This document shows positions 24,028-26,818 of a DNA stretch of 36,825 bases, in pieces; positions within the stretch are counted from its first letter, which is position 1; each line of letters starts with the position of its first letter. Origin of the DNA: Mycoplasmataceae bacterium (lineage in GTDB: Bacteria; Bacillota_I; Bacilli_A; Mycoplasmatales; Mycoplasmoidaceae); contig JAITRQ010000012.1 of NCBI GenBank assembly GCA_031288285.1, positions 1 through 36,825 on the forward strand, written 5' to 3'. Position numbers and translations under genes: made by a program. The notes beneath the pieces were generated by a model that made no database searches, was not told where the DNA came from, and saw only the letters and a program-made list of their open reading frames with translations.

Positions 24028-24113
24028 AAGAGGTAATAATGAAACAAAAAAGTAAAAAATCTTGTGGCTGTTCAAAAAGTTGCAGTGGCAAAACAAAAGT
24101 TCGTAAGCACTAA
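24028..24113 (+). CDS. 24-residue basic Cys-rich micropeptide
   Basis: The coding part is 24039-24113 and is preceded by a strong Shine-Dalgarno AAGAGG (24028-24033) and a TATAAT (24018-24023). The peptide is MKQKSKKSCGCSKSCSGKTK followed by VRKH; it has three Cys (9, 11, 15) in a CGC...C pattern and nine Lys or Arg. It might bind a metal ion or nucleic acid. I recognise no family. Such a good ribosome site is unusual in this window, where most operon-leading genes have none, which argues it is translated. It sits 19 bases before the pseudo-GGDEF-EAL gene. Confidence 0.6.
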
Positions 24114-24132
24114 TTAAGAATTATTCATTTTT

Positions 24133-25980
24133 GTGCCTTTAATTGGTAATGCTTTTTTGTGTGGAATAATCGCAATTATTTTTTCGATTATTGTTGCGGT
24201 TTCTGTTTTAACTATTCACAACACAAAATTATTCAAGAAAATTATTAATATTCATTTTACTTCTAAAATTATTTTTGATGTAATCGTTGGTGCTTTATGC
24301 GGTTTTGTTTACTTATTAATTTACTATATTGCTAACATTGCTAACGAAAATATATTTATTGTAAATACCGTATTTTGTGTAGCGATTATTTTACCAACAT
24401 TAATTTCGCTAGACTACAAAAACGTGTTCGCTTTAAACATTGGTGCTATTACGACTTTACTAATAATTAACAATTACATTCTAAATTTGTCGTTTAGTAC
24501 GATAATCGTTTTCGTATTAATCTTACATGCAGCGTTTGGCTTTTTAATTTTAATCATGAGCACGCTGATTCGTCAGAACATTTACTTGCGGGCATCATAC
24601 ACTAGCATTTTTTTCGCTATTTTACTTTGAAGTATTGTTATCTTTTATTCAACTAATATTAATTTTGTTCGTGGGTTTAGCAGTCTTAATGATTTGTGAA
24701 TTCAAACAACGATATTAATGTTTTTTACATTGATTAATTTATGATTAGCAGTAGGGGTATGGTCTGTATTCAAAAAAATAATGCAGTTAAACATTCAAAC
24801 TCAATATCGTTATAAACAATTTGTCGGTTACAAATTTGCTCCTGAACAAATTAGCGAATTTATTGCTCGCAAGAACATTCAATATGCTTATGTGATGTTA
24901 CTCCATATTGATATTGAAAATACGACTGATAAAATTGTCGATTATGATATAAGAAAACAAGTAGAAAGTATTATTAGCCAAGAAATTTCGCATAGTTTTA
25001 AAGATACATCTGCCCTTTTCTTCCAAACAAATAATGATCGGTTATTTTGTATAGTCCCAGCAACAAATTTCGATATTAACAGCATCAAAGTTTCTTATCA
25101 AAATAATATTACTGAAAAAAGAACCGCAAATGATCCTCTAGTTAAATTTGAAAATATTGAAAATAAAATTAGTAAAGAAATAGCATTGAAAAAACAGCTT
25201 ATTAAACCAACTATACAAATTTTCATTTCTGTTTATGGCTTACATGATAGTAGCATTCAACGTTGCGTCGAATTATGTAATACGTTGTTGTTAAGTAAAA
25301 ATAATACTAATTTAATACAAATCTATCACCCCGTTGATTATGCGTCACAAAATAATGAAATGATACTTTACAAGGAATTAAAAAATTATGTTAATGACAA
25401 AAATATTGAAATTCAATTTAAAAAAATTATTCTGCGGGGTGAAACTTTTCAACTACCGATTTACTCATATCCATCTAAGAATGTTTTTGAATACTTCAAA
25501 TTATTGCAATTAGTTCCTAAAAAACTAACTATTATTTTAATGCGTCATCTTGTAGCGTTAACTCTACAAGCTTATTCAACTAATTCTACTTTGAGCGAAC
25601 ATAACATCATTATTTATTACCCAATTTCCTTTATTGGCTCAACTGAATTTATCATTCAAAATTTCATGAATAAACTTAAATTGTTTTCACTCCTACCAAA
25701 ACGTGTATGTCTAATGATTGATTTAGATCAAACTAAAAGACTAAGTATAACTACGATTAAAAATCTTCAAGCTCTTGTAAAAAATGGTATTCGAATTATT
25801 TATAACAATATTAATCAGGAAAATATTAATCTTGTCAATACTTTTGACCCGTGATTTGTGTGTTACCAAAATTTAATTAATCCTTCTAAATCAGAACAAA
25901 TTACTTACGATAAATTAATGGGCGAATTATTAACTAATAATGAAATCAAATATTTTAGCCGCGAGTTATTAAGCATATAA
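24133..25980 (+). CDS. Membrane protein with degenerate GGDEF and EAL domains
   Basis: 615 residues through TGA Trp codons at 24628, 24697, 24742 and 25852. Residues 1-215 hold about seven hydrophobic helices. Residues 250-400 follow the GGDEF fold pattern: MLLHIDIENT (like the LDID strand), then FFQTNNDRLFCIVPA where GGDEF should be, then IQIFISVYG and a helix with the CNTLLLSKNN (AD-AL-AK-like) spacing. Residues 405-600 follow the EAL pattern: LRGETFQLPIY (ETF for EAL), NIIIYYPIS (Asn ligand lost), VCLMIDLD, and LVKNGIRIIYNNIN where the DDFG metal site should be. All catalytic residues seem lost, so it is a likely pseudoenzyme or receptor. It lies 14 bases before cdaM. The start GTG 24133 is the best available. 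The domain call is by pattern, not a profile search. Confidence 0.66.
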
Positions 25981-25994
25981 TTAACTAAATTAAA

Positions 25995-26690
25995 ATGGAA
26001 ACCGTAATTTCTTTAGCGATTATTATTATCTTGCTATTAGTTAGTCTGATTGCTGTACAAATTGTATTTACAATTTATGGTTCTGAAATCCGAGTATTTT
26101 TATCCCGTTTGCGTTTTGCACACCGCGGTCGTAACGAGGATTTAAAATTTATTATGTCATTTATCAACAACTTTGCCAGTGTATTAATTAAAATGTCATC
26201 TGACAAAGTTGGTGCATTAATCGTGATTGAAAACAAAGATAGTTTATTACCATACATCAACATTGGTAATCGTATTGATGCCGCTTTTTTCCCCGAATTT
26301 ATCACTTCAATTTTTTACAACAAGAAATCCGCATTACATGATGGTGCGGTTATCATCCGCAATTGGCGCATTGCTTCATTATCTAGTTATTTACCAATGA
26401 CTAAAAAAGTGGTTAATGTTGAATATGGTGCACGTCATCGTGCAGCATTTGGAGTTTGCGAGAAATTTGATTGTTTTGCTTTTGTTGTTAGTGAAACTAA
26501 TGGTAATATTACTGCAGTACACTTGGATGAATTTAAAAAACTTTCACCCTCGCCAGAAAAATTAGTAAGTGAAATTGCGCGCATTTTTGCTTCTAGTGGC
26601 ATATTTGCTCATCATAAAACTTTGCGTAAAACAGATATCTTGACACAAGTGGAAGAATTTAATAGACCCAAATTACTTAAAAGAAAATAA
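25995..26690 (+). CDS. cdaM: Diadenylate cyclase (c-di-AMP synthase, CdaM type)
   Basis: 231 residues. It condenses two ATP to cyclic di-AMP, the essential second messenger controlling potassium and osmotic balance in Firmicutes and mycoplasmas. One N-terminal membrane helix (residues 5-27, ending IVFTIYG) is followed by the DisA-N catalytic domain with ALHDGAVII (DGA motif) and EYGARHRAAFG (RHR motif), both intact. The single-helix topology matches the mycoplasma CdaM type rather than CdaA with three helices. It follows the degenerate GGDEF-EAL gene by 14 bases and is followed by tRNA-Ser. Confidence 0.93.
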   Translation: METVISLAIIIILLLVSLIAVQIVFTIYGSEIRVFLSRLRFAHRGRNEDLKFIMSFINNFASVLIKMSSDKVGALIVIENKDSLLPYINIGNRIDAAFFPEFITSIFYNKKSALHDGAVIIRNWRIASLSSYLPMTKKVVNVEYGARHRAAFGVCEKFDCFAFVVSETNGNITAVHLDEFKKLSPSPEKLVSEIARIFASSGIFAHHKTLRKTDILTQVEEFNRPKLLKRK

Positions 26691-26729: not shown

Positions 26730-26818
26730 GGAGACGTACTCAAGAGGCTAAGAGGACACCCTGCTAAGGTGTTAGATCGCTATGCGATGCATGAGTTCGA
26801 ATCTCATCGTCTCCGCCA
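26730..26818 (+). tRNA. tRNA-Ser (anticodon GCU)
   Basis: Acceptor GGAGACG/CGTCTCC, anticodon loop CTGCTAA in a CACC/GGTG stem, a long variable arm (GATCGC-TATGCGATGC region) as in class II tRNAs, T-loop TTCGAAT and encoded CCA at 26816-26818. It reads AGC and AGU. Its last two bases are the first two of a 39-base repeat that recurs 396 bases downstream. Confidence 0.96.

Follow-up and report, generated by a model that had tools for sequence, protein, structure and literature searches.

A degenerate GGDEF-EAL membrane protein encoded beside the diadenylate cyclase gene cdaM in Mycoplasmatales

Introduction

LapD and FimX bind c-di-GMP, and LapD is built of two transmembrane (TM) helices, a periplasmic domain and a HAMP domain. 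CdaR carries extracellular YbbR domains, and its gene is found downstream of cdaA. CdaA of Firmicutes binds CdaR via the TM helices, and it also binds GlmM (PMC10243994). CdaM has a single TM helix (PMC5508000), MgtE of B. subtilis binds c-di-AMP (PMC8844918), and an atypical GdpP is described in M. bovis (PMC10720645). In the coral symbiont Candidatus Oceanoplasma callogorgiae, the gene U1, coding for an EAL-like membrane protein, is highly transcribed, and c-di-GMP use is inferred by the authors in the text searched (PMC11535214).

Here we describe a gene, called X, found in a contig of 36,825 nucleotides from a Mycoplasmataceae bacterium (GCA_031288285.1, JAITRQ010000012.1), the whole of which is referred to as the window. 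Like LapD and FimX, X has both domains in a non-catalytic form, and like LapD it is membrane-bound, but it differs from them by the seven TM helices, the shortened EAL barrel and the lack of c-di-GMP synthesis around it; Pfam reveals no HAMP match in X, and no source of c-di-GMP was found in the genome. CdaR is also a membrane protein encoded with a membrane diadenylate cyclase. However, X is unrelated to it in sequence and fold, has cytosolic domains after the helices, and its gene is upstream of the cyclase rather than downstream. The comparison made in the earlier note with the way cdaR sits beside cdaA is therefore no more than an analogy. The idea that X is an unrecognised CdaR was discarded on sequence, with no YbbR domain found by Pfam in X or in any of 198 genomes of the order. 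GdpP (YybT), itself part of the c-di-AMP pathway, resembles X as a membrane protein with a degenerate GGDEF domain, but X has a pseudo-EAL in place of DHH-DHHA1; since no DHH or DHHA1 match is found, X cannot degrade c-di-AMP in that way. By its description, U1 is, like X, an EAL-like membrane protein of a mollicute, differing in that no link to cdaM is reported in the text searched (PMC11535214). Among full-text papers under open licences, none turned up in which an EAL-type protein is described together with cdaM; the closest is the one on the coral symbiont (PMC11535214).

Fold and ancestry

The features of the locus are collected in Table 1; the frame, genetic code and coordinates first given for the 615-aa ORF proved right when the sequence was read again. 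The sequence of X has zero matches in Pfam and no meaningful ones in NCBIfam or among PDB sequences, so its ancestry can be traced via homologues and structure only. The AlphaFold2 model (14 aligned sequences; mean pLDDT 77) shows seven membrane helices up to residue 225, the last one long and continuing into the GGDEF domain, and alpha/beta domains after them, whose relative placing is uncertain (pTM 0.39). The best 50 PDB matches of this model are all GGDEF, EAL or GGDEF-EAL proteins, with GGDEF-EAL pairs at the top (Foldseek, E 4e-12). In VIA-align comparisons, the GGDEF-EAL part of PA0575 gives Z 18.3 over 355 residues, with an rmsd of 14.6 because the domain arrangement differs, while single EAL domains (FimX, BlrP1) give Z about 15 at 3.6 A and a GGDEF domain from T. 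maritima gives Z 14.0 at 3.0 A. Searching the PDB with the TM part by itself gave no significant match (best E 0.5).

Homologues of X in other families of the order match the Pfam EAL domain with 2e-20 and 8e-11, and another one, from family f5, with 2e-22. Moreover, a profile derived from 20 members of the X family matches, with 3e-15, a canonical GGDEF-EAL protein that belongs to the same class but not to the order, the match spanning GGDEF into the EAL domain. By fold and ancestry, X belongs to the GGDEF-EAL proteins, with a GGDEF fold followed by an EAL fold, and both the model and the homologue profiles bear out what had been proposed from the letters of the sequence, namely about seven membrane helices and the two folds, which structure prediction was expected to recover.

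Table 1. Coordinates of the features in the window and of related genes at other loci.
Feature	Position	Strand	Remarks
24-residue Cys/Lys-rich ORF (MKQKSKKSCGCSKSCSGKTKVRKH)	24040-24114	+	GAGG Shine-Dalgarno-like; just 5' of X
Gene X, 7TM-pseudoGGDEF-pseudoEAL (P0001)	24133-25980	+	615 aa, GTG start, code 4, 4 TGA read as Trp
Seven predicted TM helices, residues 2-225	24136-24807	+	AlphaFold2 model
Degenerate GGDEF domain, residues about 226-403	24808-25341	+	Model and structural match
TNNDRLF at the place of the GGDEF loop, residues 299-305	25027-25047	+	Alignment with homologues
Degenerate EAL domain, C-terminally shortened, residues about 411-615	25363-25977	+	Pfam EAL matches of homologues and structure
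IYSY at the place of the lost EAL motif, residues 443-446	25459-25470	+	Alignment
NNI at the place of the lost DDF metal site, residues 558-560	25804-25812	+	Alignment
X-cdaM gap, 14 bases	25981-25994	+	ORF coordinates; in most relatives that have the pair, 15-59 bases
cdaM (P0002), single-TM diadenylate cyclase, 231 aa	25995-26690	+	DGA and RHR intact; Pfam DAC, NCBIfam CdaM
tRNA-Ser(GCT)	26730-26818	+	Right after cdaM
TM-less X, 327 aa, genome G036	L070:4169-5152	-	Overlaps cdaM by about 10 bases
NrnA/PdeM-like gene upstream of cdaM	L061, L062, L058, L060, L067, L068		Genus g1
Second EAL-like protein	L311:2897-4687, L313:2591-4369, L315:3069-4688, L316:4390-5961		Families f3, f4, f7

Lost catalytic sites

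The replacement of the GGDEF loop by TNNDRLF, noticed before, agrees with the alignment, in which the outgroup has GGNEF at this place, and X shows no GG(D/E)EF loop as expected for an active diguanylate cyclase. The loss of the EAL metal ligands also stands, with NN (558-559) instead of the DD of DDFG, although ETF had been taken for the place of EAL, which is in fact on the next strand, near PIYSY (442-446). From the set EAL, DDF and EGV(E) of an active EAL phosphodiesterase, X has IYSY and NNI, and the last segment is absent. Of the 40 X proteins in the alignment, not one keeps the GGDEF loop or the EAL metal ligands, and a role as an enzyme was discarded on this family-wide loss. X is almost certainly a dead GGDEF-EAL protein. 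Most members of families f1, f10 and f11 are also without the final portion of the EAL barrel, and only a few residues are near-invariant across the X family.

One alternative is a receptor with a changed ligand, in which c-di-AMP or another nucleotide would occupy the degenerate EAL or GGDEF pocket and X would signal to a membrane partner, acting downstream of CdaM instead of controlling it. X has the fold of c-di-GMP receptors (FimX and LapD rank high among the structural matches), and its gene is located with cdaM and mgtE. However, besides the lost metal and catalytic positions and the scarcity of near-invariant residues, the barrel is shortened in most of the lineages bearing cdaM, and the best-preserved EAL domains are found in lineages without a diadenylate cyclase, which rules out c-di-AMP as the common ligand. 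We consider this alternative unlikely, though it is one of the two main rivals, the other being a role centered on MgtE.

Gene neighborhood

The gene following X codes for a protein with one TM helix and a DAC domain carrying the DGA and RHR motifs. This protein matches Pfam DAC with 5e-31 and NCBIfam CdaM with 1e-57, a score below the cut-off of the latter model, and we assign it to CdaM. The genome also has a KtrC-type RCK_C domain and two DHHA1 proteins (contigs C8 and C17), whose retention indicates that a c-di-AMP circuit is present.

Neighbor counts were obtained by mechanical ORF calling. From 36 genomes with both X and a DAC gene, cdaM is directly 3' of X in 24, belonging to families f1, f7, f10 and f11, and X is not immediately before cdaM in 12. 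The gap is of 14 to 59 bases in most genomes with the pair, 14 being the distance counted earlier for the window and confirmed here. In one more genome (G244), the end of X is just 5' of cdaM at a contig edge. The survey of cdaM neighbors suggested in the earlier note thus reveals a pair conserved across genera, not a local arrangement.

From 50 genomes with X and without DAC, mgtE is directly 3' of X in 34, the identity of MgtE being confirmed. The order X-cdaM-(deoD)-mgtE is observed in f11, f10, f7 and genus g25. Upstream of X, these groups have secG, rnr and smpB-like genes as well as the end of a tmRNA-like gene, assigned from their size, start and order. Judging from these gene orders, rnr-smpB-ssrA-X-cdaM-(deoD)-mgtE is the likely ancestral arrangement, and in f5 the cdaM separating X and mgtE was likely lost. 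In the sampled f5, which includes many complete genomes, no DAC domain gene was found at all and X is mostly kept, usually with mgtE beside it; this family seems to be devoid of c-di-AMP synthesis altogether.

In genus g1, the flanks change from species to species and the X-cdaM pair stays. All 16 genomes of this genus with X have a DAC (15 by profile, in addition to the diverged P0004), and the 12 without DAC are all without X (Fisher p 2e-4, a value inflated by shared absence in incomplete assemblies). A diverged X of 515 residues is next to cdaM in genome G022 (hhalign E 4e-7), and the TM-less copy from the sister genus (Table 1) was recognized with hhalign E 7e-9.

These neighborhoods raise a second alternative, that X acts mainly with MgtE or in the balance of divalent cations, the adjacency to cdaM being inherited from the X-cdaM-(deoD)-mgtE order. 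The position of X directly 5' of mgtE in most DAC-less genomes and the single cluster shared with mgtE in members of f10, f11, f7 and g25 are in favor of it. On the other hand, X-cdaM is kept in the window and in g1 with mgtE outside the cluster, and genus g33 retains X with neither cdaM nor mgtE as a neighbor, which makes this reading improbable as well.

Two other candidates were discarded, a conserved small ORF ahead of X, as the 24-aa ORF is missing upstream in the relatives checked, and a GGDEF-EAL gene adjoining cdaA in outgroups, as none of the eight outgroup loci examined has a DAC nearby. The promoter and terminator scan gave results near chance.

Distribution across the order

The X profile matches 87 from 298 genomes of the order and 20 from 46 genera, and DAC was found in 200 from 298 genomes; many of the assemblies are incomplete, and the genomes are related, so that counts are not independent. 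X is present without any DAC gene in the 50 genomes mentioned, more than 100 genomes of family f7 carry DAC and a single one carries X, and whole families keep cdaM without X. The tie between X and cdaM is therefore neither necessary nor universal, and X needs no CdaM in the DAC-less genomes.

The earlier expectation that these bacteria would not make c-di-GMP was borne out, with essentially zero GGDEF cyclases in the order: the Pfam GGDEF model has a match above the cut-off in 1 from 298 genomes and six weak matches, none of which is X. Pfam EAL matches were found in 53 genomes, at most one in each, and most of them are X. That X still senses c-di-GMP, as its EAL fold and the canonical GGDEF-EAL proteins among its outgroup relatives could suggest, is very improbable under these counts, since no source of c-di-GMP is visible in the genomes of the order. 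For the same reason, the absence of cyclases, a c-di-GMP reading of an EAL-like gene in mollicutes is disfavored, and X argues against inferring this signaling from such a gene.

Divergence and selection

The dN/dS of X varies from 0.06 to 0.34 in close pairs, and that of cdaM from 0.06 to 0.07 where both are estimable, which agrees with the former view of a pseudoenzyme kept as an intact frame. Between sequences in which CdaM keeps 74% identity, X has 29%. On these comparisons, X is fast-evolving yet constrained, under purifying selection and with no decaying frame. A functionless, decaying relic would account for the fast divergence and the loss from many lineages, but it is contradicted by the selection test, by intact frames in over 80 genomes and by the conserved fold and position, and is hardly credible.

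Proposed function

The suggestion that X regulates c-di-AMP synthesis is made plausible by the frequent pairing with cdaM and the lack of CdaR, but it is not the whole story, given the genomes with X and without DAC and those with cdaM and without X. Our preferred reading, with about an even chance, is that X is a pseudo-enzyme receptor or scaffold of an ancestral ion-homeostasis operon, regulating by binding and not by catalysis. Both enzyme activities would have gone when c-di-GMP synthesis vanished, either ahead of the order's radiation or in its course, and the inactive protein would have been kept as a binding-based regulator, like LapD and FimX. The seven helices may sense or anchor in the membrane, and the pseudo-GGDEF-EAL part may contact a neighboring membrane protein.

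In the window and its relatives, the main target would be CdaM. With one TM helix in CdaM, no CdaR in the order and MgtE binding c-di-AMP, X is a reasonable candidate for a regulator on the CdaM side, and the possibility that it acts directly on CdaM here, as suggested by gene order, falls just short of an even chance. X would then tune the c-di-AMP output and hence the transport of K+ and Mg2+, while lineages without cdaM would retain it to act on another partner, MgtE being the simplest candidate. More tentatively, we propose that in the ancestor of Mycoplasmatales a c-di-GMP turnover protein, having lost both activities, was put to new use in the membrane, regulating c-di-AMP synthesis and ion transport in place of CdaR; one second-messenger machine would have been handed over to another. 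Long-kept gene order by itself could account for part of the linkage between X and cdaM.

If the preferred reading is true, it would explain why some minimal bacteria without c-di-GMP retain an EAL-type gene, and X would be a first candidate regulator for CdaM. It would also join c-di-AMP synthesis and the Mg2+ transporter MgtE in one ancestral operon.

Related genes in genomes without X

In g1 species without X, an NrnA/PdeM-like gene, coding for a DHH-DHHA1 phosphodiesterase, often abuts or overlaps cdaM upstream (Table 1); genes related to c-di-AMP thus tend to occupy this position. The c-di-AMP synthase and a possible c-di-AMP phosphodiesterase are then side by side. The NrnA-like gene was considered as a diverged X and discarded (hhalign probability 0.1%). 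In families f3 and f7, which mostly lack X, an mgtE-like gene is directly 3' of cdaM at loci such as L077, L081 and L085, which is an independent hint of a link between c-di-AMP and Mg2+ transport in the order.

The remaining Pfam EAL matches of the order are at least partly a second, distinct EAL-like protein of 524 to 597 aa with one TM helix, found in f3, f4 and f7, families that mostly lack X. In f4, its gene is beside a prolyl-tRNA synthetase-like gene.
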